Shown here: in pieces, positions 2,302-19,815 of the stretch
How positions within the stretch are numbered: the stretch's first letter is position 1
Layout of the letters: the number at the start of each line of letters is the position of its first letter
Assembly (NCBI RefSeq): GCF_000235425.2
Contig: NZ_KI912266.1
Coordinates: 3,105,671-3,169,670 of the forward strand
Direction of reading: 5' to 3'
From: Pseudofrankia saprophytica
GTDB taxonomy: Bacteria; Actinomycetota; Actinomycetes; Frankiales; Frankiaceae
Length of the DNA: 64,000 nt
The notes under the pieces: model-generated
Databases searched by the model: none
What the model saw: only the letters and a program-made list of their open reading frames with translations
Told to the model about the DNA's origin: nothing
Translations under genes and position numbers: made by a program

Positions 2302-2546
2302 TCGCGTGCCGACGGGCGCTACGGGGCGAACCTCGGGGCGATGCTCCCTGGAGCACTAGCGATTTCTTGCGATGAGGCGAGGAACCGAAATTGCTCATCT
2401 AGTTGGACTGATCGATTGTGATGCTCGTCACTGCGTCGTAGAGATCCGTGTGCACTGCCTGGGGTGCGCGGCCGTCGTTCCGTTCCGGTGGGATGATGTT
2501 CATTTGGGTCACTGGTCTGCCACGGCTGGTGGCTGGTCGGTGACGG

Positions 2547-2717: not shown

Positions 2718-2946
2718 CCGGACCCGATTTCGGGCACCCACCGGCGCGCCCGAACCCGCACCACTCGTCGTCCAGAAGATCGAACACGTTTCTCGACGAT
2801 CCTCGCCTGATCGATTTTCGATCTTTGTTTTCTTGTTCCTGAACAGATGGCCCCGGCCGGTGCAACAGACTCGCCGGCCCGTACCACGCCTCGGTCCGCT
2901 TCGACGCAACAACGTCGCCACGAGGTCCTCCTCCCGGGAGCCTGAT

Positions 2947-4323
2947 TCAGCACAACTGCAGGAATCGTTCCAGGATGGCGACTCCGGCGCGGATCGCGTC
3001 GACCGGCACACGCTCGTCCACGCCGTGGAAGGCCGCGGGGAAGTCGAAACCGTCGGGCAATTGCAGTGGAGCGAATCCGAAACAGTTGATGCCGAGCTGG
3101 CTGAAGTGCTTGGCGTCGCTGCCCGCGGGCAGGAGGTAGGGAACGGTGATTGCGCCGGGATCGGTGGCGATGACTGCCTGCGTGATCGCCTCGCTGACAG
3201 GCCCGCTGAATTCGGTCTCCACCGCGATGGCGCGGTAGACGATCTGGTGGTCGACGCCCGGCCCGATCAGCTCGCGCATGCGCGCCGCGCAGGCTTCTTC
3301 GGAGCCGGGCAGGAACCGGCAGTCAAACCGCGCTGTGGCGTGCGGCGGTATGACGTTCGTCTTTCCGCCCGCGGCCAACTCGGTCGGCGAGGCGACGTCG
3401 CGCAGTGACGAAGCGATCATGCGGGCGGCCGGGCCGAGGTGGTGCAGCAACGCTTCTGGGTCAACCGGATCGAACGGTTCGCCGACGCAGTCGGCGACGG
3501 TCTGCAGCAGGGCGCGCGTGGTCGGGGTGAGGCGATACGGGAACTCGTGCCGGCCGATGCGGGCGACGACCTCGGCTAGGTTCACCACGCTGTTACCGTC
3601 ATTGATCATCGATGCGTGCCCGGCGGGACCGCGCGCGGTGACCTCGAACCAGAGGACGCCCTTCTGCGCGGTCTCGATGAAATACAGTCGTTGCCCGGTG
3701 GGCAGCCGCGCCGAGTACCCGCCGACCTCTCCGATGGCCTCGGTGCAGTCGTCCAGTAGGTCGCGATGATGCTCGACCAGCCACCGCGCGCCCAGTCGGC
3801 CGCCGTTCTCCTCGTCGGCGACGAAGGCGAGCACGACGTCACGGGCCGGCCGCTGCCCGCTGCCTGACCAGGCCCGGATCACCGCAAGCACCTGGGCCAC
3901 GAAGTACTTCATGTCGACCGCACCGCGACCCCACAGGCATCCGTCCGCCAGCTCGGCGCCGAACGGGTGCCTGCTCCAGATGGCCGGTTCCGCCGGGACG
4001 ACGTCGGTGTGGGCGTGGATGAGGAGCGGTGGCCGTGTTCGGTCCAGTCCGGGCCAACGCGCCATGACCGTGGTGCGTCGGGGGCGGGGTTCGATGATCT
4101 CGACAGGCAGGCCCGCGTCGGCCAGAACGGTCGCGCAGTATTCCGCGGCGGTGCGCTCGCCCGGGCCGTCGTCGGTGCCGTAGTTGGAGGTGTCGATCCG
4201 CAGCAGGTCGGCGCAGATGGCCACGGCGACGTCGGCCGCGGAACGGGGGGCGCGCTCGCCCGCGGCGACCGCGGCGATCCCGGCGGCCGCGACCGGGGCT
4301 GCCGGGGTCGCGCCGTCAGGCAT
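2947..4323 (-). CDS. M20 family metallopeptidase / amidohydrolase (ArgE/DapE-like)
   Basis: The 458-residue product has the M20 zinc-site motifs in order: LLIHAHTDVVPAE (metal His and the adjacent Asp), GRGAVDMK (bridging Asp), and FVADEENGG (catalytic Glu and metal Glu). A dimerisation domain follows and a late His lies in FPAAFHGVDERV. These cytosolic enzymes remove acyl or carbamoyl groups from amino acids or cut dipeptides. The ATG at 4321-4323 overlaps the upstream MFS stop by eight bases; a GTG at 4333-4335 is an alternative. Coupling to an MFS porter suggests uptake and hydrolysis, or deprotection, of an N-acylated compound. The substrate is unknown. Confidence 0.8.
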   Translation of the reverse strand: MPDGATPAAPVAAAGIAAVAAGERAPRSAADVAVAICADLLRIDTSNYGTDDGPGERTAAEYCATVLADAGLPVEIIEPRPRRTTVMARWPGLDRTRPPLLIHAHTDVVPAEPAIWSRHPFGAELADGCLWGRGAVDMKYFVAQVLAVIRAWSGSGQRPARDVVLAFVADEENGGRLGARWLVEHHRDLLDDCTEAIGEVGGYSARLPTGQRLYFIETAQKGVLWFEVTARGPAGHASMINDGNSVVNLAEVVARIGRHEFPYRLTPTTRALLQTVADCVGEPFDPVDPEALLHHLGPAARMIASSLRDVASPTELAAGGKTNVIPPHATARFDCRFLPGSEEACAARMRELIGPGVDHQIVYRAIAVETEFSGPVSEAITQAVIATDPGAITVPYLLPAGSDAKHFSQLGINCFGFAPLQLPDGFDFPAAFHGVDERVPVDAIRAGVAILERFLQLC

Positions 4324-5788
4324 GCCGCGGCCCACCGGGCTGGTCCAGTTCCAGGGCCGGTGTCAGTTCGCGCGCGGTGGGTGCTGGCGCTGGCCGCCGT
4401 TGGGGCAGAGCGGCGGCCTGGTCCACCGGCAGTCCCGTGGTGCGTGGCCCGAGCGCGAGGACGTCGAGGGCCAGGATGACCAGGGCGGCGGCGACCACGG
4501 TGAACACGGCTCCCGACCCGGCGTGGTCGAGGACGGGGATGAGGACGAAGGGCAGCGCGGCGGTGACGAGCCGGCTCAGCGCGTACGCCGCGCCGACCGC
4601 CGTGGCACGCACCGCGGTCGGGTACAGCTCGGCCGTAAAGACGTGGTAACCATTGGAGTAGACGTTGCTGATCAATGTAAACAGCGTTCCCCACAAAACC
4701 ACGGTGGTGCCGGAGCCGGCGAACCCGAACAGCAGCCCGGTGACGGCCATTCCACTGGCCGAGACCGCCACGACGGCACGGCGCTCGAAGCGTTCGATCA
4801 CTGGCAGCGACAGCAGTGAGCCGAGCGGATAGCCAACATAGGTGAGGGCGAGGAAGCTCAGCGAGGTAAGCACCGTGTAGCCCTTCGCGACCAGCACCAG
4901 GGTCGCGATCGTGCCGAATCCGTAGTAGCCGATCGCCGACATCACATTCATGATCCAAGCCATCACGGTGCGCCGCAGGAACGGCCCGGTGAACAACACA
5001 CGGAACGGCGGGCGCCGCAGTGCTGTCTCGGGAGGCGCCGTCGGGGCCGGGACGGGGACCGGTTCGGAAAGGGCGTGCCCACGCCGGACGGCGTCGGTCT
5101 CCCACGCGGTGACGATGCGGTCGGCCTCCTCATGCCGCCCGACCGACTCCAGCCAGCGCGGCGACTCGGGCAGCACCCGCCGCAGCGCCCACACCAGCAC
5201 GGCGCCGAGAGCGCCGAGGAAGAACATCCAGCGCCATCCGTCGACGCCGACCGGACTGCGCGCCACGAGCCCGCGGCCGAGAAACCCGGCGGCCGGGACG
5301 CCAAGGAAGCCGATCGTGTACGCGACGGCAATGAGCCGGCCGCGCACCCGCGGTGGCAGCAGATCGGACAGGTAGGAGTCGCCGAGCGTGAGCTCAGCCC
5401 CCAGCCCCATCCCGGCCAGGAACCGTGCGCCGACGAGGACCTCGACGTTCGGCGCCAGTCCGCCGACCAGCGAGAACACCGAGTAGATGAGCAGGTTCAG
5501 CAAGAACGAGTTGCGGCGGCCGATGCGGTCGGCCAGCCGGCCGAGTACCAGCGCGCCGGCAAACTGGCCCACGAAGGCACTGGCCAGCAGAAGCTTGAGC
5601 GCATCCCCTCCGAATCCGAATCTCTCCTTCAGCACGACCGACAACGTGCCGGCCAGAAACACCTCGTAGGTGTCGAAGAAGAACCCGAGCCCGACGCAGA
5701 TGACCGCGACGAGGTGGATCCTGCCAACCGGCAGGCGATCGAGCCGAGCCGCCAGGGATGGTTTGCCGACGTCGATAGAAGATGTCAT
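4316..5788 (-). CDS. MFS transporter, metabolite/sugar porter type
   Basis: The 490-residue protein has about 12 membrane segments. The loop after TM2 reads GRLADRIGRR (MFS motif A) and the loop after TM6 reads PESPRWLE, both typical of the sugar-porter/aromatic-acid:H+ symporter branch. A DTYEVF motif in TM1 fits the same group. The start ATG at 5786-5788 follows GGAGAA at good spacing. The C-terminus is proline rich and cytosolic. It overlaps the M20 gene, so the two are likely made together. It follows the YciI gene after a 203-base gap, so it may belong to the large operon upstream or have its own promoter. Confidence 0.8.
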   Translation of the reverse strand: MTSSIDVGKPSLAARLDRLPVGRIHLVAVICVGLGFFFDTYEVFLAGTLSVVLKERFGFGGDALKLLLASAFVGQFAGALVLGRLADRIGRRNSFLLNLLIYSVFSLVGGLAPNVEVLVGARFLAGMGLGAELTLGDSYLSDLLPPRVRGRLIAVAYTIGFLGVPAAGFLGRGLVARSPVGVDGWRWMFFLGALGAVLVWALRRVLPESPRWLESVGRHEEADRIVTAWETDAVRRGHALSEPVPVPAPTAPPETALRRPPFRVLFTGPFLRRTVMAWIMNVMSAIGYYGFGTIATLVLVAKGYTVLTSLSFLALTYVGYPLGSLLSLPVIERFERRAVVAVSASGMAVTGLLFGFAGSGTTVVLWGTLFTLISNVYSNGYHVFTAELYPTAVRATAVGAAYALSRLVTAALPFVLIPVLDHAGSGAVFTVVAAALVILALDVLALGPRTTGLPVDQAAALPQRRPAPAPTARELTPALELDQPGGPRHA

Positions 5789-5991
5789 GGCCTTTTCTCC
5801 AGGTCGCTATAGCCGCGTTTCCGCGGCAAGGAAATGGGCTCTGCTAGCCCAGCGGCGTCGGCGACGCTGGCGTGTCAGTTAACGCGGGAAAGGCGCTATT
5901 CGCGGATAGCCGAGGAGGCTCGAGCGGAACGGTGTTGTCCGCTCCGTGGCTGCCGCAATGAACAGCACGCGGTTTCGGCTCCGGGCGGCGC

Positions 5992-6342
5992 CTAGGACGA
6001 CATGGTGGCGTCGGCTGCCGCCGCCCGAGCCCGGTCCAGCTCGGCGTCGAGCAGCCCGGGTGGGTCCTCGGGAACCATCTGTCGCATGGGATGGACGACG
6101 ACGGACTCGAACACCCCGGCCCGGTGGTAGGGCTCGCCCGCGAGGAACCGCGAGGCTTCGGACGTAGTGGCCACTCGCAGGGCGAACACCGCACCGATGG
6201 CGAGCCCGTCCTCGGCGGTCAGCGGGCCACCGAAGACCAGCCTCGACCGGGCGGCCATCATGTACTCGAGGTGCGCGGGCCTGATCGCGCGGCGGAGTTC
6301 CTGGGTGCCGGTCCGGTCGCGGCACAGAACTAGCACGATCAT
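5992..6342 (-). CDS. YciI-like protein
   Basis: A 116-residue protein with the YCII fold: HLEYMMAARSRLVFGGPLTAEDG, then ASRFLAGEPYHRAGVFESVVVHP. Family members are small ferredoxin-like proteins with a conserved His and Asp. Some act as dehydrochlorinase-like or cyclohydrolase-like enzymes, but most have no assigned reaction. Its ATG overlaps the upstream MFS stop as ATGA (6339-6342), which makes it the last translationally coupled gene of the operon that starts at 12,261. A role in handling the operon's product is possible but not shown. Confidence 0.75.
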   Translation of the reverse strand: MIVLVLCRDRTGTQELRRAIRPAHLEYMMAARSRLVFGGPLTAEDGLAIGAVFALRVATTSEASRFLAGEPYHRAGVFESVVVHPMRQMVPEDPPGLLDAELDRARAAAADATMSS

Positions 6343-7976
6343 GGCTGCTGCCTTCCGTGATGACCGTCGCTACCACCGGGGCTCGGGACGTGCGCGGGGC
6401 CGCCCCGAACGGGGGCCGGGCGCCGCAGGGTCGAAGCCGCGAGGGCGGCCGCGACGGTATAGGCGGCCGCCACCGCGATGAGCGCTCGGCCGATACCCGC
6501 CCGCTCACTTCCCGCGCCCGCGACTACTCCGCCGAGCAGCGCGATGCCGAGGGTTCCGCCGATCTGGCGGGCGGTGTTGTTCAGCCCGGACCCTAGGCCG
6601 GCCCGCGCTCCCGGGACGGCCGCGACCGCGGTCGACACCACCGCCGGCAGCGCCAGCCCGATGCCCACGCCCGCGAGCACCAGACCGGCGGTGGCAGCGA
6701 CTCCCGACGCCCGGTCGGCTGCGACGAGCGCGACACCCGTACCGGCGGCCAAGCCGCCAAGCGTCCCCGGGACGCGTTGGCCGAACCGGTCGGCGATCCG
6801 CCCGGCGAGCATGCTGACGGCGGCATAGGCCGCGAACAGCGGAGCGATGCGGACGCCCGTAGCGGTGGCTGACCGGCCGTCCACATGCTCGAAATCGAGG
6901 CTGAGCAGGTAAAGCAGGCCGAGAGTCGCGAAGTTGACCAGCAGCGAGGCGAGGTTGGCGCCCCGGAAGGTTCGCGAACGGAACACCGACAGTGGCACGA
7001 GTGGCGTCGCGCACCGGCGCTCCACCGCGACGAATCCCGCCGCGAGCAGGACCGAGGCGCCGAGCGCCAGCCATCCGATGACCGACCCGGGCTCCGCGGC
7101 TGCCTCGGACAGCCCCCAGGCCAGGGCGCCCAGCATGAGCACGGCGAGGATCTGGCCGCCGCGGTCGAGGTGGCGGTCGTGGCCGCCGCGACGCGACTCG
7201 CGCAGCACCCTGCGCCCGGCCGCGATGCTCACGAACGAGATCGGCACGTTGATCCAGAAGATCCACCGCCACCCCAGTCCGTCCACGACCAGACCACCGA
7301 CGAGTGGACCGACGACCAGGGCGATGCCGGCCACGGCCGACCACACGCCGATCGCGCGGGTGCGGTCGGTCCCGTCGAAGGCGTCAGTGAGGATGGCGAG
7401 CGAAGACACGAGGACGGCAGCGCCGGCGACGCCCTGCAAGGTGCGGAACAGGATCAGCCAGCCGACTCCGGGCGCGGCCGCGCAACCAGTCGACGCGGCC
7501 GCGAAGCCGGCCAGCCCGGCCAGGAAGACCCGCCTGCGCCCGAACAGGTCGCCGACGTCGCCAAAACCGATCATGAACGCGGCGAACGTCACGAAATACC
7601 CGTCGACCACCCAGGTGACCGCGCCGGTGGACGCGTGCAGCCGGCGACCGATCGCGCCGACCGCCACGTTGACGACGGTCAGATCCAGCTGGGTGACGAA
7701 CAGCCCGACGCAGGTGACGAGCAGCACCGACCAGTCCCGGCGGCTCCAGCGTCCAGCCACGGACTGGTTGGCGCCAGCGTTCCCGCCCACGGCGGTCGCC
7801 GCCGCTGTGCTGGGCGTCCGCAGGCTCACCGGCTGACCGACCATGGCCGGCGTGGCACCGTTCGGGCCGGCGCGATCTCCCCGGTGTTGCGTCCATCCCG
7901 GCCATCCCAGCGGCGAGCGCGGCACGGACGGTGCGACCGGGTGGCAAGCCATCTGATCATCATCGCGCCTAGTCAT
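6339..7976 (-). CDS. MFS drug-efflux-type transporter, DHA2 (14-TMS) family
   Basis: The 545-residue product starts its membrane core near residue 84 (SVLLVTCVGLFVTQLDLTVVNVA, a DHA2 hallmark), then GFGDVGDLFGRRRVF (motif A), a motif-C-like GPLVGGLVVDGLGWRWIFWINVP, and about 14 membrane segments. Such proteins export small molecules by proton antiport. The first 80 residues are unusual for the family, so a later ATG (for example at 7842-7844) is possible. The start at 7976 overlaps the chorismate mutase stop by eight bases, which supports it. Within an operon for phenylpyruvate supply and methylation, export of the end product is the simplest role. Confidence 0.8.
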   Translation of the reverse strand: MTRRDDDQMACHPVAPSVPRSPLGWPGWTQHRGDRAGPNGATPAMVGQPVSLRTPSTAAATAVGGNAGANQSVAGRWSRRDWSVLLVTCVGLFVTQLDLTVVNVAVGAIGRRLHASTGAVTWVVDGYFVTFAAFMIGFGDVGDLFGRRRVFLAGLAGFAAASTGCAAAPGVGWLILFRTLQGVAGAAVLVSSLAILTDAFDGTDRTRAIGVWSAVAGIALVVGPLVGGLVVDGLGWRWIFWINVPISFVSIAAGRRVLRESRRGGHDRHLDRGGQILAVLMLGALAWGLSEAAAEPGSVIGWLALGASVLLAAGFVAVERRCATPLVPLSVFRSRTFRGANLASLLVNFATLGLLYLLSLDFEHVDGRSATATGVRIAPLFAAYAAVSMLAGRIADRFGQRVPGTLGGLAAGTGVALVAADRASGVAATAGLVLAGVGIGLALPAVVSTAVAAVPGARAGLGSGLNNTARQIGGTLGIALLGGVVAGAGSERAGIGRALIAVAAAYTVAAALAASTLRRPAPVRGGPAHVPSPGGSDGHHGRQQP

Positions 7977-8346
7977 GTTCGGTGGACGGACGGACGTCGA
8001 CCGACGGGGCCGGTCCCCGGCACAGCAGAAGCAACGCCACCGCGACCTCGCTGCCGGCTGGGCCGAGCGCGTCCAGGAATCTGCGGGTGACCTCGTACTC
8101 GCGGGTCATCTCGATCCGCCCTCCGCCGGCGGTCATCCGCAGCTTCTGTATCCGCCAGGCCACCCGACGCCGCAGCACGATCACGTCGCGGATCAGGTCG
8201 TCGAGCTCGTCGATGATCTCGCGACCCTCAGTCACCGAGTCGATCGTGGAGATGTCCGGGGTCTCGGGGCCGAGCAGGTCGAGGCCGGTCGGCCAAGACC
8301 GGCTAGGTGCCGGGTGCGGTCGCGCGTCGAGTTCGCCGGCGGTCAC
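7969..8346 (-). CDS. chorismate mutase (AroQ class, mycobacterial MtCM-like)
   Basis: The 125-residue protein contains an AroQ helical domain: IIDELDDLIRDVIVLRRRVAWRI, then RMTAGGGRIEMTREYEVTRRF and LGPAGSEVAVALLLLCRG. This layout closely resembles the short intracellular chorismate mutase of mycobacteria, including the loop before the last helices and a C-terminal tail. It converts chorismate to prephenate. About 35 extra residues precede the domain. It starts at GTG 8344-8346. It lies downstream of prephenate dehydratase and upstream of the exporter in one operon, so prephenate made here would feed the neighbouring dehydratase. A separate housekeeping copy should exist elsewhere in the genome; this is inference. 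Confidence 0.82.
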   Translation of the reverse strand: MTAGELDARPHPAPSRSWPTGLDLLGPETPDISTIDSVTEGREIIDELDDLIRDVIVLRRRVAWRIQKLRMTAGGGRIEMTREYEVTRRFLDALGPAGSEVAVALLLLCRGPAPSVDVRPSTEHD

Positions 8347-8380
8347 CGCGGCACGTCCCGAGAGCAGGTGCGGCCGGTCT

Positions 8381-8659
8381 TCAAGCGCATGGTGTGTCTC
8401 CTTCGTCGTCGTTCGTGACTGCCGGTCTCGGCGGGGCCAGCCGGCCTGGCAGCGCCCCGCAGACCAGCGCGGCCAGCAGGTAGGCGGCCGCGGCCACGGC
8501 CAGTCCGACCCGCGTGCCCGCGGCGACCGAGTGGGAGCCGGCGACGATGCCGCCGAGCAACGCGACGCCGCGGGCCGGCGTGCGGGGGCCGAACCGTTCG
8601 ACGAGTCGCCCGGAGAGAAGGCTGATGATCAGCAGCACGCCCCAGGCGCCGCGGTCCCA
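8381..8659 (-). pseudogene. MFS (DHA2) transporter remnant with internal deletion
   Basis: About 90 codons read DRGAWGVLLIISLLSGRLVERFGPRTP and then jump directly to ALLGGIVAGSHSVAAG and a final membrane helix, AAYLLAALVCGALPGRL. In the intact DHA2 gene at 6,339 the equivalent segments (MLAGRIADRFGQR and ALLGGVVAGAGSERAG) are about 75 residues apart. So this fragment has lost both its N-terminal two thirds and an internal block. The frame is still open. It sits between prephenate dehydratase and chorismate mutase, as if an older exporter gene was eroded and replaced by the intact one downstream. Confidence 0.6.
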
Positions 8660-8686
8660 ACGAGCCCGGGGATGCGTCCACCTTGG

Positions 8687-9631
8687 TCACCCGGCCTTCC
8701 TGGGCCGGCTGGGCGTGGGCCGGCTGGGCGTGGGGCGGCTCGGGGCGGGCTCGTCGAAGGTGCCGAGGACGCGGACCCGGACGCCGTGCTCGGCCAGCTC
8801 GCGCAGCACGGCCCGTGGCGGCGGGTCGTCGGGATGGCCGTGCCACTCGATGAGGAAGTAGAAGCGGCCCAGCCCGTCGCGGGTCGGCCGGGATTCGATC
8901 CGGAGCAGGTCGATGCCGGCGCGGGCGAACGGTTCGAGGACGGTCATCAGCGATCCGGGCCGGTCGCGCCGCTGGAAGCAGGCGATGACCGTCCGCTCGC
9001 GTCCGGTGCGGGCCGGCTCGTCGCGGCCGAGGACGACGAACCGGGTCTCCGCTGTGGCGGTCTCCCCAATGTCGTCGGCCAGAACGCTGAGCCGCGGGGC
9101 GGCGAGGCCCGCCTTTGGCGTGACCGCGGCGGTTCGGCCGGTCGGGTCGCCCAGGGCGAGCTCGAGCGCGGCCGTCGTGGACGGGGTCGGGACCAGGCTG
9201 GACCGCGGGGCGTGCTCGGCCAGCCAGGCACGGCATTGGTCGAGCGCGTGCGGATGTGAGGAGACCGTGCGCAGTGCCTCGGGGCTGGCACCGTGCCGGC
9301 CGACGAGCTGGAACCGGACCGGGATGACGACGTCGCGGTGCAGGCGGACCTGGCTTCGTTCGGACGGGTCCACGGCCTTTCCGGTGCCCAGGCCGGCGAG
9401 CAGGTCGGCCGTCGGCCCGACCAGGCCGGCGACCGAGTTCTCCCAGGCCAGCACGCCGTAGGTGACCGAGCCGTCGCTGAGCCGGGCCATGAGTTCGTCG
9501 GGGTCGGCGCAGGGGACGTGCCGCAGCGCGGCCAGGGCCGGATCGGCCAGCACGGTGCGGTGGGTGAAGGTACCCGCCGGTCCGAGGTAGGCGACGGACG
9601 CGGCTGGGGCGGGATCGAGTGTGGTGGTCAC
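8687..9631 (-). CDS. pheA: prephenate dehydratase with ACT domain
   Basis: The 314-residue protein begins VAYLGPAGTFTH, contains the catalytic TRF motif at residues 196-198 (ETRFVVLGRD), and ends with an ACT domain (about 212-290) that keeps the phenylalanine-binding ESRP motif at 246-249. The other ACT motif, usually GALV, reads GSLM here, so feedback control may differ. The enzyme converts prephenate to phenylpyruvate. The C-terminal tail is a PTPSR repeat encoded by a 15-bp tandem repeat (8701-8745). GTG at 9629-9631 follows AGGAG. Its place beside a chorismate mutase and an MppJ-like methyltransferase suggests dedicated phenylpyruvate supply. Confidence 0.9.
   Translation of the reverse strand: MTTTLDPAPAASVAYLGPAGTFTHRTVLADPALAALRHVPCADPDELMARLSDGSVTYGVLAWENSVAGLVGPTADLLAGLGTGKAVDPSERSQVRLHRDVVIPVRFQLVGRHGASPEALRTVSSHPHALDQCRAWLAEHAPRSSLVPTPSTTAALELALGDPTGRTAAVTPKAGLAAPRLSVLADDIGETATAETRFVVLGRDEPARTGRERTVIACFQRRDRPGSLMTVLEPFARAGIDLLRIESRPTRDGLGRFYFLIEWHGHPDDPPPRAVLRELAEHGVRVRVLGTFDEPAPSRPTPSRPTPSRPRKAG
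8701..8745. repeat. 15-bp tandem repeat in the pheA 3' end
   Basis: Three consecutive 15-bp units lie here. The first two are identical (TGGGCCGGCTGGGCG) and the third is degenerate. The repeat is in frame and encodes the PTPSR-type tail of prephenate dehydratase after the ACT domain. Unit number could vary between strains without a frameshift. Confidence 0.8.
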
Positions 9632-9724
9632 GGCCGACTCCTGGAGGTCTCCACGCGCGGGACGGGTCGACGCCGCCGGTGCCGCCGGGGGCGGCCCCGG
9701 CTATTGGGTGAGGCCTTCGGGCGA

Positions 9725-11149
9725 CTAGCGGGCCGCCAGCGCGTCCGACAGCAGGTCGGGCCCGACGACCTTCCCTGGATTGAGCACGTTGGCCGGGTCG
9801 AACAGGTCCTTGATACGGGCCATCCACAGGGCCGCGTCGCCGTGCTCGGCGGTCAGGTACTGGCGCTTGCTCAGGCCGATGCCGTGCTCGCCGGTGCAGG
9901 TGCCGCCGACGCGCAGCGCGTGGCGGACCAGCTGGTCCGAGAACAGCGCGGCGGGGGCGTCCTGGCCCTCGGCGACCGCGACGACGGTGTGGATGTTGCC
10001 GTCGCCGACGTGACCGGTGGTGACCACGTCCAGCCCGAGATCGGCGCGCAGCTCGCTGATCACCTGCGCGTGCTCGACGATCGCCGACAGCGGCACAGCC
10101 GTGTCAGTGATCAGGTATCGCCGGCCGGGGAAGGCCCGGCGGATCGACCAGTACAGGCGGTGGCGTGCTTCCCAGATGGCCTCCCGCTCCGCCTGCGCGG
10201 TCGCCGTGCCGACCGTGCTCGCGCCGGCGTCGAGCAGGACTCGGCGGGCGATGTCCAGCTCGGTGGCCAGGCCGGCCGCGGTGGAGCTGTGCAGTTCGAC
10301 GAACAGGGCAGGGGCGTCCGGGACCAGGCCGGGCACGTCCTGGGCGAGCAGGCCGGCGGTGATCTCGTCGAGCAGCTCGAGGCGGGCGATGGGCAGCCCG
10401 GTCCCGACCGCGGCGAAGGCGCCGGCCACCGCGGCGGCGACGTCGGGGAAGAACGCCCGCAGAACCGCGATCTCCTCGGGTACGGGGTGCAGCGCGACGG
10501 TGAGTTCGGTGATGACGCCCAAGGTGCCCGCCGAGCCGATGAACAGGTCGCGCAGGTCGTAGCCGCTGCTCGACTTGCGGACCGGCCGGCCCAGCCGCAG
10601 CACCTCACCGCTGGCCAGCACGACCTCCAGGGCCAGAGTGTTGGCCCGCATGCCGCCGTAGCGGATCGTGGTCGTGCCGCTGGCGTTGGTCGCCGCCATC
10701 CCGCCGAGGCTCGCGTCCGCGCCCGGGTCGACGGGAAACGTCAACCCGAACTCCCTCGCCCGGGAGTTGAGCCCGTTCCTGGTCAGGCCCGGCTGGACGA
10801 CCGCGCGGAAGTCCTCCGGGCACAGCGCGACAAGCCGGTTCATCCGGGAGACGTCGAGGCTCACCTCGCCGCCGAGTGGCACCACATGGCCCTCGGCGCT
10901 GGTGCCGGTACCGAACGGGATGAGCGCCACGTCGTGGCGGGCGGACCATCGCATCGTGGTGACGACGTCGTCACGGGTCTCGGCGAACACCACCGCTCGC
11001 GGCGGGATGCTGTCCAGGTGGTTCTCGTCGCGGCCGTGGGTGTCGAGGTCGGCGGGCCGGGTCGACACCGTGCCCGCGAGCCCGGCGGCCAGCTCGGCGA
11101 GGGCGTCCGCGTCCGGGACCACCCTGGCCGGCCGGCTGACGGTGGTCAC
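9725..11149 (-). CDS. FAD-linked 2-hydroxyacid dehydrogenase (D-lactate dehydrogenase / glycolate oxidase GlcD-like)
   Basis: The 474-residue protein has an N-terminal PCMH-type FAD domain with IPFGTGTSAEGH and PVDPGADASLGGMAATNASGTTTIRYG, and a C-terminal FAD-oxidase domain with GHVGDGNIH (metal site) and TCTGEHGIGLSKRQYL. This is the D-lactate dehydrogenase (cytochrome)/D-2-hydroxyacid dehydrogenase family, which oxidises a D-2-hydroxyacid to a 2-oxoacid. GTG at 11147-11149 overlaps the methyltransferase stop as GTGA. In this operon the likely substrate is an aromatic hydroxyacid such as D-phenyllactate or its methylated form, but that is inference from context. Confidence 0.8.
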   Translation of the reverse strand: MTTVSRPARVVPDADALAELAAGLAGTVSTRPADLDTHGRDENHLDSIPPRAVVFAETRDDVVTTMRWSARHDVALIPFGTGTSAEGHVVPLGGEVSLDVSRMNRLVALCPEDFRAVVQPGLTRNGLNSRAREFGLTFPVDPGADASLGGMAATNASGTTTIRYGGMRANTLALEVVLASGEVLRLGRPVRKSSSGYDLRDLFIGSAGTLGVITELTVALHPVPEEIAVLRAFFPDVAAAVAGAFAAVGTGLPIARLELLDEITAGLLAQDVPGLVPDAPALFVELHSSTAAGLATELDIARRVLLDAGASTVGTATAQAEREAIWEARHRLYWSIRRAFPGRRYLITDTAVPLSAIVEHAQVISELRADLGLDVVTTGHVGDGNIHTVVAVAEGQDAPAALFSDQLVRHALRVGGTCTGEHGIGLSKRQYLTAEHGDAALWMARIKDLFDPANVLNPGKVVGPDLLSDALAAR

Positions 11150-12261
11150 CGCGCGGCCGACACGGTCTCGGTGACGGCCTGCACGACGTCCACGGAGGCG
11201 GCGCCGGCCGGCGCGACCGGGACGAGCTCGAACAGGACGCCGCCGGGTGGGGCGACGGTGTGGTGGGCCGCGCGGGGCGTCCAGCCGGCCTCGGCGAATG
11301 CCTCGCCCCACTCGGCCTCGGTCGGCAGGTAGGTGTGCATGAGCGCGTGGGCGGCCTCGAAGCCGAGCCGGAAGATGGGCGTGTCCGGCCCGGGCGTGTC
11401 CTCGGACCGGACAACGTCGCAGAGCAGCATCGTCCGAAGGTTCGGGAAGGCGATCCGCAGGTTGGTCAGCACCCGCACGCACGACTCGCGCGGCCAGAAG
11501 TCGTGGCCCATGAACACGCAGGTGACGACGTCGACGTCGGACAGGTCGTCGGCGGGGGTGAGCCGGTGGACGTCGCCCTGGCGCACGCTGAGCCGGTCGG
11601 CCAGGCCCTCGGCCGCGATGACCTGCCCCGCCAGCTCGACCGAGGCGGGGGCGAGGTCGATGCCCACCCCGGTCACCCCGGGATTCCGCTTCATGATCCG
11701 GACCAGGCGCCCACCCGAGCCGCAGCCCAGGTCGGCGACCCGGGTGAGCTCGAGGCCGCCCAGGACGCGGTCGAACAGCGGCTCGACCTCGCCGTTGCCC
11801 ATGAGCCGGGAGCTGAGGGCCACCGCGCGCATGTCGCGGTGATAGGTGACCTCGTCCCGGTCGGGCGCCAGGTCGGCCGCGTAGGTGAACACCTCGCCGT
11901 TGCCGCGCACCAGCCAGTAGAAGTAGCCACGCAGTTCGTACGCGTCGGCGAAGCGCGGACCGGGCCGGACCAGCAGGGCCGGGTCCGAGGTGTCCAGCTC
12001 GACGATGCCGGCCCAGGCCAGCGCGTTGAGCAGGGCGCGCGCGACCCAGGGCGACACCGGCTCGCCGCCACGGCGCAGGTCGTCTGCCCGACAGGTGCCG
12101 CCGTCGGCGAGCGTGTCGAACAGGCCGAGCTCGACGGCGGCTGAGATCGCGCTGGCGGCCACGTAGGAGGAGAAGATGTCGGCCACCGGGCCGATGGTCG
12201 CGGGCGGCGGCGCGGCGGGGGCCGCCGAGGGAGCGGGCTGTGGCGAAAGGGAGGCGCACAT
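11146..12261 (-). CDS. SAM-dependent methyltransferase, MppJ-like (phenylpyruvate C-methyltransferase candidate)
   Basis: The 371-residue protein has an N-terminal helical dimerisation domain and a class I fold with VADLGCGSGGR (residues 175-185) as the SAM site. It carries His253-Asp254 (FMGHDFWPRE) and His305 (FEAAHALMH). MppJ of the mannopeptimycin pathway is a ferric-iron methyltransferase that methylates the benzylic carbon of phenylpyruvate; from memory its iron ligands are His243, Asp244 and His295, the same H-D pair and the same 52-residue spacing. The product would be 3-methylphenylpyruvate. AAGGA precedes the ATG at seven bases. It is the first gene of an operon with prephenate dehydratase and chorismate mutase, which fits that substrate. 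O-methyltransferase relatives are the alternative. Confidence 0.75.
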   Translation of the reverse strand: MCASLSPQPAPSAAPAAPPPATIGPVADIFSSYVAASAISAAVELGLFDTLADGGTCRADDLRRGGEPVSPWVARALLNALAWAGIVELDTSDPALLVRPGPRFADAYELRGYFYWLVRGNGEVFTYAADLAPDRDEVTYHRDMRAVALSSRLMGNGEVEPLFDRVLGGLELTRVADLGCGSGGRLVRIMKRNPGVTGVGIDLAPASVELAGQVIAAEGLADRLSVRQGDVHRLTPADDLSDVDVVTCVFMGHDFWPRESCVRVLTNLRIAFPNLRTMLLCDVVRSEDTPGPDTPIFRLGFEAAHALMHTYLPTEAEWGEAFAEAGWTPRAAHHTVAPPGGVLFELVPVAPAGAASVDVVQAVTETVSAAR

Positions 12262-12536
12262 AGCAATTCCTTCGCTGGGAGCCGGTGGGGGAATGGGGAT
12301 TACCAGGGGTGGGTCGTCGCGAATATGAGCACGACAACGGAGCGTTCACCGCAGGCGCCTATTGCGTGCCGCGGTTCGGCGTTGACCGAACGAGAATCGG
12401 ACCAACGAACTGAGAATGTCTTTTCATTTATGGTGCGGACGGCGGCCGCCGAGTGTCAAGCGAAGGAATGTTAACATTCTATATCGGCATGTTACACTTG
12501 GTGCATATTTCTGCCTCGTTTCGGCGGGACTGGACG
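12262..12536. promoter_or_regulatory. divergent promoter region for the methyltransferase operon and tetR
   Basis: These 275 bases separate the leftward operon head from the rightward TetR gene. The right half is clearly more AT rich than the surrounding coding DNA and contains the 14-bp palindrome listed separately. It must hold both promoters. I cannot assign -35 and -10 boxes with confidence. Confidence 0.5.
12466..12479. promoter_or_regulatory. perfect 14-bp palindrome, probable TetR operator
   Basis: GAATGTTAACATTC is identical to its reverse complement. It lies 57 bases before the tetR start and about 205 bases before the methyltransferase start, in the divergent intergenic region. Location, symmetry and AT content fit an operator for the adjacent TetR protein, which would then repress itself and the methyltransferase operon. 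Binding is inferred. Confidence 0.5.
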
Positions 12537-13193
12537 ATGGAAAGGGTGGTTCACACGCCTACGGCGAGCGGTTCGATCCGCGGCGAGGAACCGGGCAGCC
12601 GCCGGATCAGGCGGGATTACCTGGCGAGCCGGCGGGATCTTCTGGATGCGGCCGAGCGATTGCTCGCGAAACACGGCGGGCGGTTCAGCCTCGTGGATCT
12701 CGCGGCCGAGGCCGGTGTGTCGACCGCCACTGCCTATCGACATTTCCCGGACGTGGACGCGGCCCTTGACGCCTATTACACGCAGCTCGTGGAGACCCTG
12801 GTCAGCCACATGGAGGCGGTGCCGGCCGCGCCGGATGTGCTGCGCCGTTTCGTCGCCGTGTGCGAGCTGTGGGTCCGCGAGGCCGTGAGCTGGGGGCCGG
12901 CCGTGGTGCACGTCCGGTCCTCCCGCGGTTTCCTGCAGCGGCTGCGCGCGGACGACCCGGTGATCGGCCGGCTGTTCGGGGCGCTCGCGCCGCTGCTGGC
13001 CGCGCTGACCGAGGCCGGTTTCATTCCTCCCGGGCCCGCCGAGTACGGGGTGCTCATCTGGGTGACCGTGTTCGACGAGCGGGTGGTCGTCGATCTGCAC
13101 GACAGCCTGAGCTGGCCGTCCGCGCGCATCGCGGCCGAGCTGACCGGCAGCGTGCTGCGCGCCCTCGGCCGGCCCGCCGGGGCGGCCGAGTAG
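12537..13193 (+). CDS. TetR/AcrR family transcriptional regulator
   Basis: The 218-residue protein has a TetR N-terminal helix-turn-helix: LLDAAERLLAKHGGRFSLVDLAAEAGVSTATAYRHFPD, at about residues 33-70, followed by a helical ligand-binding domain. ATG 12537 is chosen; an in-frame GTG at 12453 would place translation through the palindromic operator. It is divergent from the methyltransferase operon and convergent with the RidA gene, 27 bases apart. It most likely senses an aromatic 2-oxoacid or product and controls the operon through the palindrome at 12466. Confidence 0.8.
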   Translation: MERVVHTPTASGSIRGEEPGSRRIRRDYLASRRDLLDAAERLLAKHGGRFSLVDLAAEAGVSTATAYRHFPDVDAALDAYYTQLVETLVSHMEAVPAAPDVLRRFVAVCELWVREAVSWGPAVVHVRSSRGFLQRLRADDPVIGRLFGALAPLLAALTEAGFIPPGPAEYGVLIWVTVFDERVVVDLHDSLSWPSARIAAELTGSVLRALGRPAGAAE

Positions 13194-13220
13194 CACTCGG
13201 CTACCCGGCCGCCCCGGCGC

Positions 13221-13646
13221 TCAGCCGAGCACGGCCGTCGCCTCGATCTCCACCAGCAGGCCGGGCCGCACCAGCCCGCAGACCACGGTCGTCCGGGCCG
13301 GCGGGTCGACCGGGAAGGCCTCCCGGAACGCGACGTCGAGCTCCGGCGCGGCGGCGGCCTCGGTCAGGTAGCACACGCAGCGCACCACGTCGGCGAGGCG
13401 GCCACCCGCCCGGTCCAGGACCTCGGCGATCTGGCCGAAGATGTCGCGCGCCTGGCTCACCGTCGTGCTGCCGCGCGGCCGGCCGGTCGCCGGGTCCAGG
13501 GCGACGCAGCCCGAGAGCACGACCAGGTCATCGACCCGCACCGCGGCGCTGATCGGGGCCAGGCCGGCGAGCCCGGGCGGCAGCGGCACGGTCGTCCTGG
13601 TCGAGCGTGGCCGGTCGACGGATCCGGTCCTCGCGCCGATCACCAT
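13221..13646 (-). CDS. RidA family (YjgF/YER057c/UK114) protein
   Basis: The 141-residue product shows a RidA core: DDLVVLSGCVALDPATG, QARDIFGQIAEVLDRAGG, and the end motif with the conserved Arg, VDPPARTTVVCGL, then VEIEATAVLG. RidA proteins hydrolyse reactive enamine/imine intermediates from amino-acid enzymes to 2-oxoacids. The ATG at 13644-13646 overlaps the stop of the upstream FMN oxidase by seven bases, so they are coupled. A role in cleaning up imines around an aromatic 2-oxo/amino-acid pathway fits, but the real substrate is unknown. Confidence 0.8.
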   Translation of the reverse strand: MVIGARTGSVDRPRSTRTTVPLPPGLAGLAPISAAVRVDDLVVLSGCVALDPATGRPRGSTTVSQARDIFGQIAEVLDRAGGRLADVVRCVCYLTEAAAAPELDVAFREAFPVDPPARTTVVCGLVRPGLLVEIEATAVLG

Positions 13647-14836
13647 CGCGACGCCGCCGACGGTCTGATCATCGTGTCGGTCAGCTCGTCGACGCCGCTT
13701 GCTCCGAGAAGCTTGATGGTCGTCGAGATCTCCTCGCGTAGCAGTTCGTGCAGCCGGCCGACGCCTTCCTCGCCGCCGGCCGCGAGCGCCATCGCCGCGG
13801 CGCGGCCGATGACGACGACGTCGGCGCCGAGCGCCAGTGCCTTGACGACGTCGCTCCCGCGGCGGATCCCCGAGTCCAGCGCGATGGGCACCCGACCGCT
13901 GACCGCCGCGACGACCTCCGGAAGCTGGTCGAGGGCCGCGGGCACCGTGTCGAGCTGCCGGCCGCCGTGGTTGCTGACCAGCACCGCGGCGGCTCCGGCC
14001 CGCACGGCCGCCTCGGCATCGGAACCGGTGAGGATGCCCTTGGCCATCCAGGGCAGCGGCGAGTCCGCCATCCGCCCGGCGAGCTCGTCCCAGGTCCAGA
14101 TCGGCTCCCGGCGGACGAACAGTTGGCCGAGGGTGTCGGCCAGGTCGGCCGGACCGGCGTGCGGGTAGTTGCCGCTGACCACGTCGACGGCCACGTCGAA
14201 CCGGTTGCGCATGTTGCGCTCGCGCCAGCCGGCCGTCGGGCAGTCCAGCGTCAGGCAGAGCGCGCTGAAACCCGCGGCGGCGGCCCGGCGCAGCATCGCG
14301 GCGAAGTTCGCCGGGTTGCCCATCGGGTGCAGCTGGGCCATCCGCGCGGCGCCCGGCGCCGCCGTCGCCACCTCCTCCCAGGAGTACGACCCGGCCTCCG
14401 GCACGATCGAGGCCACGCCGGCCTTGGCGTTCGCCCGGGCGACGGCGAGCTGGCCGTCCCGGTGCATCAGCCGGTCGGCGCCGAACGGGCTGGTGAGCAC
14501 CGGCATCGACAGCTCGATGCCGAGGAAGGTGCGGGCCAGGTCCGGCTCGCCGGCCCCGGTCATCAGCCGTGGCAGCACCGCCCACTGCTCGAACGACGAC
14601 AGGTTGGCCCGCAGCGTCTGCTCGCCGCCCGAACCACCGTCGAGGAAGTCCCACACCTGCGGGGGCAGCGCGCGACGGGCCTCCTCGTAGATCTCCCCGA
14701 CCGTGGCGAACCGGTCGGCTGAGGTGAAGGAGACGAACGGGCTCGGGTCGGTCCCGGTCGGGGCCGTCGCGTCCCGCGGCCGGGCGGGCCGCGCCGGCGG
14801 GACCGCGGCCTGGGTCGAGGCGTCAGTGGCTGTCAC
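13640..14836 (-). CDS. FMN-dependent alpha-hydroxyacid oxidase / dehydrogenase (L-lactate or mandelate type)
   Basis: The 398-residue protein is a TIM-barrel FMN enzyme. It contains MPVLTSPFGADRLMHRDGQLAVARAN, WMAKGILT with the FMN-binding Lys (residue 266), and the active-site SNHGGRQLD with catalytic His290. It ends with GVPIALDSGIRRGSD-type and GADVVVIGR phosphate-binding motifs. The family oxidises L-2-hydroxyacids (lactate, mandelate, 4-hydroxymandelate) to 2-oxoacids. Start is GTG 14834-14836. It is paired with RidA and sits beside a D-specific FAD dehydrogenase gene, so both enantiomers of an aromatic hydroxyacid could be drawn into one 2-oxoacid pool. That assignment is inference. Confidence 0.82.
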   Translation of the reverse strand: MTATDASTQAAVPPARPARPRDATAPTGTDPSPFVSFTSADRFATVGEIYEEARRALPPQVWDFLDGGSGGEQTLRANLSSFEQWAVLPRLMTGAGEPDLARTFLGIELSMPVLTSPFGADRLMHRDGQLAVARANAKAGVASIVPEAGSYSWEEVATAAPGAARMAQLHPMGNPANFAAMLRRAAAAGFSALCLTLDCPTAGWRERNMRNRFDVAVDVVSGNYPHAGPADLADTLGQLFVRREPIWTWDELAGRMADSPLPWMAKGILTGSDAEAAVRAGAAAVLVSNHGGRQLDTVPAALDQLPEVVAAVSGRVPIALDSGIRRGSDVVKALALGADVVVIGRAAAMALAAGGEEGVGRLHELLREEISTTIKLLGASGVDELTDTMIRPSAASRW

Positions 14837-14959
14837 GTGTCACTCCACTCCACTCCTGTCTGATCGGCGGCCGTGCCGGGCGATCAGGACGTCGCCGCGC
14901 GGACGGCCTGCGTCCCGGCCGCCGCTTCGGTAGAGCTCGATCTCTGTCGGCTGGCCCGA

Positions 14960-15751
14960 TCACCCCGCGAGCAGCTGCCGGTCCGACGGGGCGTCCCCGA
15001 GCCCGGACACGATGTCGACCAGGTCGGACGGCGTCAGCGCCGTCTTAGCGGGCCCGGCCACGTCGTAGATGACCCGGCCGCGCGACATCACCAACAGCCG
15101 GTCGCCGACCTCGATCGCGTGGCGCATGCTGTGCGTGATCATCATCGAGGCGCAGCCCAGTCGTTCGTGCATCTGGAGGGTGAGGTCGAGGACCCGCGTA
15201 CGGGTCCTGGGGTCCAGCGCCGCCAGGTGCTCATCGAGCAGCAGGAGCTTGGGTTTCCGTAGGCCGGCCATCAGCATCGTCACGCTCTGCCGCTGCCCTG
15301 CGGACAGCAGCGTCACCGGGTCGGCGAGGCGGCGCTCCAGGCCCAGGCCGAGCACGGCGAGGTCCTCGCGCATGCCCGAGCGCCGGCCCGGGGTGACCGC
15401 GGGCGACAGCCGCCGCCGACGGCCGCGGGCGGCGGCGAGAGCGAGGTTGTCGGCCAGGGAGAGATCGGGCGCGGTGCCCGCGAGTGGGTCGTCGAAGACG
15501 CGGGCCACCGCGCCGGCGCGGGCGTGGACCGCCAGCCGCGTCACGTCCCGGCCGCCGAGCAGCACCCGCCCCCGGGTCGGCCGGTAGACCCCGGCCACCA
15601 CGTTGACCAGGCTGCTCTTGCCGGCGCCGTTGCTGCCGACGACGGTGACGAACTGACCAGCCGGGATCTCCAGGTCGACGTGGTCGAGCGCGACGACCTC
15701 CGTCGGGGTGCCCGCGCCGTGGACCAGGCGCACTCCGTCCAGCCTCAGCAT
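14960..15751 (-). CDS. ABC transporter ATP-binding protein (TrpXYZ-like, aromatic amino acid type)
   Basis: The 263-residue ATPase has Walker A GSNGAGKSS, the signature in an LSAGQRQSVTMLMAG form, and Walker B LLLLDEHLAALDP. The LSAGQRQ signature and DEHLAALDP box are characteristic of the ABC.X4 group, whose members include tryptophan/tyrosine uptake systems in Gram-positives. It forms one minus-strand unit with the permease and lipoprotein genes upstream; the permease stop and this ATG at 15749-15751 are adjacent or overlapping. It powers uptake of what is probably an aromatic or related small molecule. Confidence 0.82.
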   Translation of the reverse strand: MLRLDGVRLVHGAGTPTEVVALDHVDLEIPAGQFVTVVGSNGAGKSSLVNVVAGVYRPTRGRVLLGGRDVTRLAVHARAGAVARVFDDPLAGTAPDLSLADNLALAAARGRRRRLSPAVTPGRRSGMREDLAVLGLGLERRLADPVTLLSAGQRQSVTMLMAGLRKPKLLLLDEHLAALDPRTRTRVLDLTLQMHERLGCASMMITHSMRHAIEVGDRLLVMSRGRVIYDVAGPAKTALTPSDLVDIVSGLGDAPSDRQLLAG

Positions 15752-16812
15752 CAGCCAGCCTCCTTCATCGTCGCCGAGGCCGAGGCCCGCCCGGCGGCGG
15801 CGGGCTGGCGGGCAGGAGGGACAGTCGGACCGTCGTCGGCCACCGGCCGGCCACCCGCCACGGCGGCGGTCCTCGGGCCGTCCAACGCCACCGCCCGGCT
15901 GCCGAGACGGCCGCCCGCGCCGAACCGGCCCAGCGCTCGGCCGATCTCGGGCAGGTAACGGTTGAGCGCGACCGCCGCGACCAGGGTGAGTGCGGTGATG
16001 CCGGACAGGTCGGTCGCCTGCAACCCGGCCCGCAGCGCGCCGACCAGGATCAACCGGTACAGCAACGTGCCGGCGACCACGGCGGCGATCACCCGGCCGA
16101 CCCGGGACGCCCCGCCCGGCCGGGCGATCAGCTCACCGAGCATCACCGCGCCGACACCCGCCAGCAGTGTGCCCGTGCCCGTCGACGAATCGGAGAAGCC
16201 CTGGGACTGCACGGTCAGCGCGCCCGACAATCCGGCGCTGGCGTTGGCCAGCGCCAGGCACAGCGCCAGCGAACGCCGGTCGTCGACGCCCTGAGCCCGG
16301 GCCATCCGGGGGTTGACCCCGGTGGCCCGCAACGCCAGACCGATCTCGGTGAGCAACAGGTAACCGACGGCGGCGAGGAACACGGCGGCGAACGCGGCGA
16401 GGATCGCGATCGTCAGCCAGTCCTGAACGTCCGGAGCCAGGCCGATCAGTCCACCGAACAGGGTCCGGCCGCTGTCCAGACTGATCGACGGCCGTCCCAG
16501 CACGTGCAGGTTCAGCGTCGTCATGCCGATGCTCATGACCAGCCCGGCCAGAATGACCGGGATGCGAAACGCCAGGTGCAGCCCGGTCGTGACGAGCCCC
16601 GCGGCGGCGGCCCCGGCCACGGCCACGAGCATCGCCAGCGGCACGCCCAGTCCGTGATTGAGTAGCACAGCGGTGATCGCGCCGCCCAAAGTGAAGCTGC
16701 CGTCGACGGTGAGGTCGAAGTCCTGCCTGATGCGGACGACGAGGTAGATGCCCATGACGACCGGCAGCAGCGGCAGACCGGCGATCAGGGTGTCGGTGAC
16801 GAGGAATCGCAT
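15751..16812 (-). CDS. ABC transporter permease (TrpXYZ-like)
   Basis: The 353-residue membrane protein starts MRFLVTDTLIAGLPLLPVV and has about 8-9 hydrophobic segments, with VDGSFTLGGAI and the late GVGAVMLGE region typical of ABC.X4/branched-chain-like permeases. The last 60 residues are a polar alanine- and proline-rich cytosolic tail not usual in the family. The ATG at 16810-16812 lies just inside the end of the lipoprotein gene (2 bases before its stop codon), so translation is coupled. It forms the channel for the adjacent ATPase and substrate-binding lipoprotein. Confidence 0.78.
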   Translation of the reverse strand: MRFLVTDTLIAGLPLLPVVMGIYLVVRIRQDFDLTVDGSFTLGGAITAVLLNHGLGVPLAMLVAVAGAAAAGLVTTGLHLAFRIPVILAGLVMSIGMTTLNLHVLGRPSISLDSGRTLFGGLIGLAPDVQDWLTIAILAAFAAVFLAAVGYLLLTEIGLALRATGVNPRMARAQGVDDRRSLALCLALANASAGLSGALTVQSQGFSDSSTGTGTLLAGVGAVMLGELIARPGGASRVGRVIAAVVAGTLLYRLILVGALRAGLQATDLSGITALTLVAAVALNRYLPEIGRALGRFGAGGRLGSRAVALDGPRTAAVAGGRPVADDGPTVPPARQPAAAGRASASATMKEAG

Positions 16813-16814
16813 GG

Positions 16815-17810: not shown

Positions 17811-17823
17811 CCGACCTCCCAAT

Positions 17824-17841
17824 CTGAGAAGTTCTTCTCAG
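17824..17841. promoter_or_regulatory. inverted repeat in the leader of the TrpXYZ-like operon
   Basis: CTGAGAAGTTCTTCTCAG has perfect 8-bp arms around TT. It ends 14 bases before the lipoprotein start codon, directly upstream of its GGGAGG ribosome site. It could be an operator overlapping the promoter or a short hairpin that masks the ribosome site. No T-box or riboswitch features were recognised around it. Confidence 0.45.
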
Positions 17842-18084
17842 GTCAGGTTGGGAACCTCGTGTTTCTTACCGATAAAGGTTTCTGATCGTTCTGGTAACGA
17901 CTCTGTGGGCTGGTGTACTCACTGTGAGCATCGATTCAACTCCGGCGACTCTGTGTAATGAAGGCGGCGTTCCTAACGCGTAGGCGGCGTTGACGGTGAC
18001 CGTCTGCCGAGGGCACGGGGACGCGGCTCGCCCGGTCCGGATGCCGTCTTGGTCACGGAGGCGTGGGGACTGTCCTACATCCCG

Positions 18085-18276: not shown

Positions 18277-18349
18277 CCAGCGAGCCAGCGACGGTCCAAC
18301 GCGTCCCGACTCCGCCCAAACGCAACAGCCCCGCCGTCGCTGGTTGGCA

Positions 18350-19789: not shown

Positions 19790-19815
19790 GCCATGGACGT
19801 GGTCGGTAGAGGGTG

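Follow-up and report, generated by a model that had tools for sequence, protein, structure and literature searches.

A conserved gene block of Pseudofrankia as a candidate horizontally moved island for a free beta-methylated phenylpyruvate-type metabolite

Main finding and layout of the locus

We analysed a window of 64,000 nucleotides from the 9.98-Mb genome of Pseudofrankia saprophytica (G000:C1:3105671-3169670), and in particular a run of genes on its minus strand (12261-5992) that opens with a methyltransferase (MT) resembling MppJ. This run is part of a conserved block of about 15.1 kb. The explanation we prefer, with a probability of about one in two, is that the block is a horizontally moved island free of non-ribosomal peptide synthetase (NRPS) genes that would yield a free beta-methyl phenylpyruvate- or phenylalanine-type metabolite. 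Beta-methylated phenylalanine is known as a component of larger natural products; here a phenylpyruvate supply of its own, the MT, an exporter-type transporter and an importer appear to move as a unit, which suggests that the end product is this small molecule. Were an operon to be devoted to a free, secreted 3-methylphenylpyruvate-type compound, this MT family would gain a new kind of end product.

The block and the genes of the run are as follows (FAD, flavin adenine dinucleotide; MFS, major facilitator superfamily):

2884..17959, no strand: conserved block of about 15.1 kb with approximate edges, present at a different genomic place in each of four genomes (DNA comparison, gene order, flank comparison)
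11146..12261, minus: MppJ-type alpha-keto-acid C-methyltransferase, predicted phenylpyruvate beta-methyltransferase (MppJ similarity, Dimerisation and Methyltransf_2/25 domains, MppJ residues kept)
9725..11149, minus: FAD-linked D-2-hydroxyacid dehydrogenase, LDHD type (FAD_binding_4 and FAD-oxidase_C; start overlaps the MT stop by 4 bases)
8687..9631, minus: prephenate dehydratase (PDT) with ACT domain, the genome's second copy (PDT 131.6 bits, E 3.7e-38; ACT 36.3 bits)
8381..8638, minus: MFS transporter gene remnant, lying between PDT and chorismate mutase (a longer remnant in a related genome resembles the intact MFS)
7969..8346, minus: AroQ-type chorismate mutase (CM), the genome's second copy (NF005894 82.9 bits, cut-off 73)
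6339..7976, minus: DHA2-type MFS efflux transporter (MFS_1 170.9 bits; annotated start perhaps too far upstream)
5992..6342, minus: YCII-domain protein (YCII 48.4 bits)

All frames of the six genes in the run are open. Besides the overlap between MT and FAD dehydrogenase, CM and the DHA2-type MFS overlap by 8 bases and this MFS and the YCII gene by 4; gaps of 93 and 340 bases separate the FAD dehydrogenase from PDT and PDT from CM. A sequence-only reading made before this analysis had described an operon joined by overlaps or short gaps. Its gene content and order stand, but given the two gaps its account of the joins holds only in part. Likewise, the run is present within the unit it had delimited (5992-12536), but the conserved unit is larger. 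A promoter scan gave one weak site ahead of the divergent TetR gene and no site for the MT operon; terminator-like sites number 5 against 3.3 expected, so that the scan says little about transcription units.

Methyltransferase and phenylpyruvate supply

Each of the closest solved relatives of the MT is an MppJ chain (best E 9.1e-66, residues 25-346 aligned, 40.7% identity to MppJ across the aligned part), and the next structural family, 8ftr, is far weaker at E 2.2e-19. The similarity is near full-length and covers the dimerisation as well as the methyltransferase domains. We aligned MppJ with 15 sequences, namely the window protein, those of three other carriers of the block and those of 11 loci outside Pseudofrankia (that of L007 extends a few residues beyond its stop codon). 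The MppJ positions W99, R127, H243, D244 and H295 are identical in all 15, and all 15 have Phe in place of M240 of MppJ. H243 and H295 form the two-histidine metal site of MppJ, which is kept, as is R127. For SgvM, a relative of MppJ, H244 and H296 are named as the metal ligands (PMC10502145). The genome contains no second full-length MT; the sole further match spans residues 173-301 at 34%.

Both genes expected to supply phenylpyruvate are present in the run. The PDT shows the TRF and ESRP motifs, and the genome has two PDT genes, this one and another at 6.48 Mb (G000:C1:6478857). The CM matches a mycobacterial chorismate mutase at E 2.5e-10 and has no Pfam match at E 0.001; it too has one other match in the genome, at 2.47 Mb (G000:C1:2470510), next to the match to itself. 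Because the genome has another of each, the PDT and CM of the operon are extra copies. As a separate observation, the ACT region of the other PDT (L028, G000:C1:6478857-6479381) is unusual, with ESFM in place of ESRP, while the operon copy has the usual form. This ESFM-type region resembles that of alphaproteobacterial enzymes.

Judged from the conserved MppJ active-site residues, phenylpyruvate is the likely MT substrate, and since the extra PDT and CM copies stand together with the MT it is also the most likely one. The C-methylation of phenylpyruvate put forward in the sequence-only reading thus gains support from five MppJ residues kept in 15 of 15 sequences and from the second CM and PDT copies, though as a prediction.

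Conservation and probable movement of the block

DNA comparison of window positions 1-19900 with eight genomes of the genus shows the stretch of about 2884-17959 to be conserved in three other genomes (G028, G029 and G032), interrupted only around the remnant region. It holds 14 genes, all present in the same order in each of the three: the run, an M20 hydrolase, a further MFS, a TetR regulator, a RidA protein, a flavoenzyme dependent on flavin mononucleotide (FMN) and a three-gene ATP-binding cassette (ABC) importer. These remaining genes are:

2947..4335, minus: M20-family amidohydrolase/peptidase, within the block (Peptidase_M20 107 bits; NF005913 602 bits, cut-off 382)
4316..5788, minus: MFS transporter nearest aromatic-acid/H+ symporters, within the block (Sugar_tr and MFS_1; block conservation)
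12537..13193, plus: TetR-family regulator, divergent from the MT operon (TetR_N 35.5 bits; open frame from 12453)
13221..13646, minus: RidA-family protein, imine/enamine deaminase family (Ribonuc_L-PSP 75.3 bits)
13640..14836, minus: FMN-dependent hydroxyacid oxidase-like flavoenzyme (FMN_dh 355 bits)
14960..15751, minus: ABC importer ATPase (ABC_tran 84.6 bits)
15751..16881, minus: ABC importer permease (BPD_transp_2 71.5 bits)
16815..17810, minus: TrpX-type substrate-binding protein of the importer (ABC_sub_bind 160.6 bits; relatives 6hni, 3lkv and 3lft)

The MT occurs in four of the eight genomes of the genus and in none of the 27 other genomes of the family; at E 1e-30 the same four are found among the 35 genomes of the order and of the family. 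A search across the phylum at E 1e-40 returned one of 396 genomes, the window's own, and is weak because five candidates were scored per genome. Plasmid relatives number 8 among 72,556 records, all from Streptomyces, below 60% identity and none reaching 80% query coverage.

Apart from short pieces adjoining the edges and scattered repeats, the flanks are unrelated among the carriers (in the other genomes 3.7-15.6 kb were compared on each side, in the window 42 kb). With the most distant carrier, G029, the block shares 95-96% DNA identity, whereas a 19.9-kb piece of core DNA surrounding the other PDT gene reaches 68-87% in its longer matches. The same block thus lies at differing places and is more alike than core DNA, strongly so for G029 and less so for G028 and G032. 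The G+C content is 71.9% in the block and 68.7% in the remaining window. The best reading of these comparisons is that the block is a horizontally moved island of Pseudofrankia.

Relatives and known systems

A scan of 84,980 species genomes with six short exact peptide patterns from the MT, which distant relatives may escape, gave 13 loci (L003-L015). Two are from Pseudofrankia (L003 in G032, L004 in G028) and the other 11 have MTs at 51-55% identity. Among the latter, nine have an adenylation-type enzyme in the compared stretch; the two without are L015 and L006, the latter truncated at a contig end. (AMP-binding matches occur in 10 of 10 relatives' genomes searched and were not used for this count.) Five loci (L007, L008, L011, L012 and L014) are SB-203208-like, with genes for an aldehyde dehydrogenase (ALDH) fused to a peptidyl carrier protein (PCP), a luciferase-like protein, a GNAT protein, an adenylating enzyme and a protein like isoleucyl-tRNA synthetase (IleRS); the domains were read in L007 and the other four loci assigned by similarity to it. 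The nearest relatives by identity are the SB-203208-like L011 and L012 (both 55.4%), followed by L015 (54.8%) and L005 (54.7%) in other contexts. In none of the 11 stretches was a FAD dehydrogenase, PDT, CM, MFS or YCII gene of the window type matched at E 1e-6, and the gene combination is confined to Pseudofrankia among the genomes searched.

The Streptomyces locus L015 (L015:635-11020) is of interest in its own right. It combines an MppJ-like MT with a phosphoenolpyruvate mutase, an iron-type alcohol dehydrogenase, a FemAB/GNAT-type protein and an ATP-grasp protein with an L-amino acid ligase domain, and the compared stretch gave no match to an adenylation enzyme. The locus has the look of a cluster for a peptide phosphonate that contains a beta-methyl aryl amino acid.

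In comparison with described systems, MppJ of the mannopeptimycin pathway belongs to the same family, shares the five residues and has the same predicted reaction. MppJ however serves an NRPS product, whereas the window MT has CM and PDT in its run and no NRPS modules near it. For SB-203208, beta-methylphenylalanine is described as being used through a stand-alone adenylating enzyme together with carrier proteins, and IleRS-like, GNAT and ALDH genes are named as well (PMC6331615). The five SB-203208-like relatives, which alone represent SbzD in our comparison, are 52-55% identical to the window MT. Unlike the sbz cluster, the 14 block genes include no IleRS-like, GNAT, adenylating, ALDH-PCP or other carrier-protein partner, and conversely the five loci lack a FAD dehydrogenase, PDT or CM of the window type. 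The jomM cluster of the jomthonic acids likewise has an MppJ-type MT, but its assembly line of polyketide synthase and NRPS has no counterpart in the block. Bottromycin, with which a comparison had been suggested, is not a valid one because radical-SAM enzymes make its beta-methyl groups.

The closest parallel in layout is mrsAB of Pseudomonas syringae, in which an alpha-keto-acid C-methyltransferase and an exporter reportedly suffice for free 3-methylarginine. The window likewise combines a C-methyltransferase and a predicted exporter, with no NRPS nearby and no aminotransferase among the 14 block genes. It differs in substrate, in exporter family (that of mrsAB belongs to LysE, whereas the window transporters are MFS) and in its precursor-supply genes, which are not known from mrsAB.

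The enzymes of the block are of known kinds. In the open-licence literature, searched mostly at the level of titles and abstract starts, no description of the gene set or of its movement was found, which is no proof of absence. In that search, MppJ and a prephenate dehydratase occurred together only in E. coli engineering work. For a poorly explored group of actinobacteria the block provides a small system open to experiment, together with a candidate operon for making a chiral beta-methyl 2-oxo acid. It is also a case in which the limits of a transferred unit indicate which genes act together.

Absence of NRPS and aminotransferase genes

The sequence-only reading had stressed that both an NRPS and an aminotransferase are missing. 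Its first point stands insofar as the NRPS genes are distant: of 14 condensation-domain matches in the genome, the nearest lies 0.96 Mb away and is a 44-bit fragment, the other 13 lie at 5.14-5.22 Mb, and the large NRPS genes are 2 Mb away. Condensation domains are found in all eight genomes of the genus, with 14, 10, 9 and 15 matches in those carrying the MT and 24, 9, 10 and 13 in those without (for instance 9 in MT-bearing G029 and 9 in MT-free G031). Because they occur across the genus irrespective of the MT, a dedicated NRPS partner is unlikely.

The missing aminotransferase proved unremarkable. None was found among the 14 block genes or the scanned window genes (some small open reading frames being left out), and the nearest Aminotran_1_2 match genome-wide is about 0.5 Mb away, classes III-V not having been searched at this scale. 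In the paper on the jomthonic acids, the words 'aminotransferase' and 'prephenate' each occur 0 times in the main text (PMC6117699). E. coli TyrB transaminates the product of MppJ (PMC11496134), and for that reason the absence of a dedicated enzyme carries little meaning.

Flavoenzymes and importer cassette

The closest solved relative of the FAD dehydrogenase is LDHD (E 2.4e-98). The FAD domain, the C-terminal domain and the metal-binding His/His/Glu motifs are present, and the GHVGDGN and CTGEHGIG stretches are kept. LDHD-type enzymes oxidise D-2-hydroxy acids; what sets the window gene apart from them is its place in a phenylpyruvate-forming run. The FMN enzyme keeps the catalytic Lys/His/Arg of its family, but in the alignment Leu and His replace the two substrate tyrosines of glycolate oxidase (Y24 and Y129 in that enzyme's numbering). 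Of the two hydroxyacid oxidoreductases named in the sequence-only reading, the second (13640-14836) lies outside the unit it had delimited.

The importer resembles the TrpXYZ type for aromatic amino acids in its binding protein, permease and ATPase and in the relatives 3lft, 3lkv and 6hni. It differs at two of the five ligand positions named for TrpX (PMC9382623), mapped by counting along a printed alignment: T129 is replaced by Gly (6hni has Ser here) and N233 by Ala. These two changes make a plain aromatic amino acid an improbable ligand.

Parts of this region also occur without the MT. In G030 the TetR, RidA, FMN enzyme and ABC genes are present at 81-90% protein identity without an MT, and G032 has, besides its block, a second MT-free copy of the cassette (TetR, FMN enzyme and ABC genes, again 81-90%, no RidA match). 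G029 has a lone TetR relative besides the block. The importer cassette is probably older than the operon in the genus and was later joined to it. A perfect palindrome at 12467, between MT and TetR, was considered as a conserved TetR operator and rejected, the exact palindrome being missing from the other three block carriers.

Proposed pathway and alternative explanations

In the pathway we propose, CM would convert chorismate to prephenate and PDT prephenate to phenylpyruvate, after which the MT would add a methyl group to the benzylic carbon to give 3-methylphenylpyruvate (2-oxo-3-phenylbutanoate). This compound may leave as such or be turned into beta-methylphenylalanine by a general aminotransferase, and the DHA2-type transporter would export the product. 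The FAD dehydrogenase would more likely feed (methyl)phenyllactate back into the 2-oxo-acid pool and not form a hydroxy acid; importer, FMN flavoenzyme and RidA could serve the uptake and oxidation of a related aromatic acid. The scheme would be like that reported for mrsAB, with phenylpyruvate replacing 2-oxo-arginine. The free-metabolite reading also draws on the relatives, since five of the 11 outside Pseudofrankia lie in SB-203208-like loci, whose product contains beta-methylphenylalanine. The sequence shows the gene content, the kept active-site residues, the conserved block and its differing insertion places; the MT substrate, the direction of flux, the product, its export and regulation by the TetR protein are inferred. 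A more far-reaching version, which we regard as doubtful, sees in the block a self-contained transferable circuit that makes, exports, senses (through TetR), re-imports and oxidises beta-methylated phenylpyruvate, such that carriers would secrete an antimetabolite or signal from the phenylalanine family and could recover it.

A number of observations weigh against the reading of the block as a moved, NRPS-free island for a free metabolite. As to movement, some core pieces reach 96% identity for G028 and G032 as well, so that only G029 argues strongly for transfer. None of the 14 block genes encodes a recombinase, and no terminal repeats above chance were seen within 60 bases of the approximate block ends. 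The 42 gene comparisons (14 genes, three genomes) gave ratios of nonsynonymous to synonymous substitution rates (dN/dS) of 0.05-0.53 with stop-free counterparts covering at least 91% (the MFS to 91%), which counts in favour of the reading, but with dS at 0.02-0.16 and few changes per gene the per-gene ratios are thinly based. As to function, NRPS genes do exist elsewhere in the genome, and in the MT tree the Pseudofrankia enzymes form a separate branch, within neither the SB-203208-like nor any other group. The cassette also occurs without the MT, so the importer need not act on a methylated product, and its binding protein keeps just three of five TrpX ligand positions. The M20, YCII and RidA proteins have no step in the proposed pathway, while an MFS family match reveals neither the substrate nor, alone, the direction of transport. 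Finally, the MFS remnant shows decay within the run.

According to the sequence-only reading, 3-methylphenylpyruvate would be reduced and free 2-hydroxy-3-phenylbutanoate would be the end product. A D-2-hydroxyacid dehydrogenase does follow directly on the MT with a 4-base overlap, and indolmycin, in which a beta-methylated 2-oxo acid is reduced to a hydroxy acid, provides a precedent. The dehydrogenase, however, uses FAD and keeps the motifs of the LDHD type, whose members oxidise D-2-hydroxy acids. The FMN enzyme, also of an oxidase family, is by alignment without the two substrate tyrosines, and the TetR-FMN enzyme-ABC cassette recurs MT-free at two further loci. No NAD-dependent (nicotinamide adenine dinucleotide) 2-hydroxyacid dehydrogenase was matched among the 14 block genes. 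Since both flavoenzyme families run from hydroxy to oxo acid, a hydroxy-acid product is disfavoured and we consider it unlikely. It might also be argued that the island feeds beta-methylphenylalanine in trans to an NRPS elsewhere, as for mannopeptimycin or jomthonic acid. The 13 condensation-domain matches at 5.14-5.22 Mb would be candidate partners, and nine of the 11 non-Pseudofrankia loci have an adenylation-type enzyme. The 0.96 Mb to the nearest condensation-domain match, the presence of NRPS domains in all genomes of the genus with or without the MT, the transporters within the block itself and its movement without an accompanying NRPS nevertheless make such a supply role decidedly unlikely.

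The identity of the substrate offers another way out: the MT could act on a different aryl 2-oxo acid, such as 4-hydroxyphenylpyruvate or indolepyruvate, with PDT and CM serving something else. The modest identity to MppJ and the change of M240 to Phe agree with this, as does the fact that the class also includes MarI, SgvM, CdpJ, MrsA and GlmT, each with a distinct native substrate (PMC10502145). However, PDT makes phenylpyruvate, no other block gene is known for another aryl-pyruvate, and the nearest MT relatives include the SB-203208-like L011 and L012, even if L015 and L005 are almost as near; the chances of a different substrate are therefore slim. Least probable in our view is that the block serves mainly to take up and convert aromatic acids; methylation would then inactivate or modify an imported compound, and synthesis would be secondary. 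The ABC importer, the MFS nearest aromatic-acid symporters, the M20 hydrolase and two flavoenzymes would fit such a role, but CM and PDT, which are committed biosynthetic enzymes and extra copies, stand in the run of the MT.

Transporter assignments and surroundings of the block

The DHA2-type protein scores 212.1 bits with an EmrB-type model, under that model's cut-off of 230.2, and the MFS at 4316..5788 reaches 178 bits with TIGR00895, well under the cut-off of 418.55. The remnant between PDT and CM is longer in L003 (L003:13608-14057), where it is 54% identical to residues 387-494 of the intact MFS, so that window and L003 represent different stages of decay; in L004 no MFS remnant was matched between the two genes. 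Because the L003 remnant clearly resembles the intact MFS, a tandem transporter copy has decayed here.

Some further observations concern the edges. Both block flanks in G032 (contig C64; L026 and L027), as read from the sequence, encode an RHS/YD-repeat-like protein and match each other at 74-79%, as if the block had been placed in or between RHS genes. In the window, a separate open frame at 565-1254 near the left edge encodes just the C-terminal half of an aldehyde dehydrogenase, matching positions 245-460 of the 461 in the profile. Just beyond the right edge (18096-18335) lies a repeat of about 240 bp with many copies in this and related genomes at about 72-90% identity, and next to it, at 18400-19710, a Mutator-type transposase that has two more identical copies in the genome.

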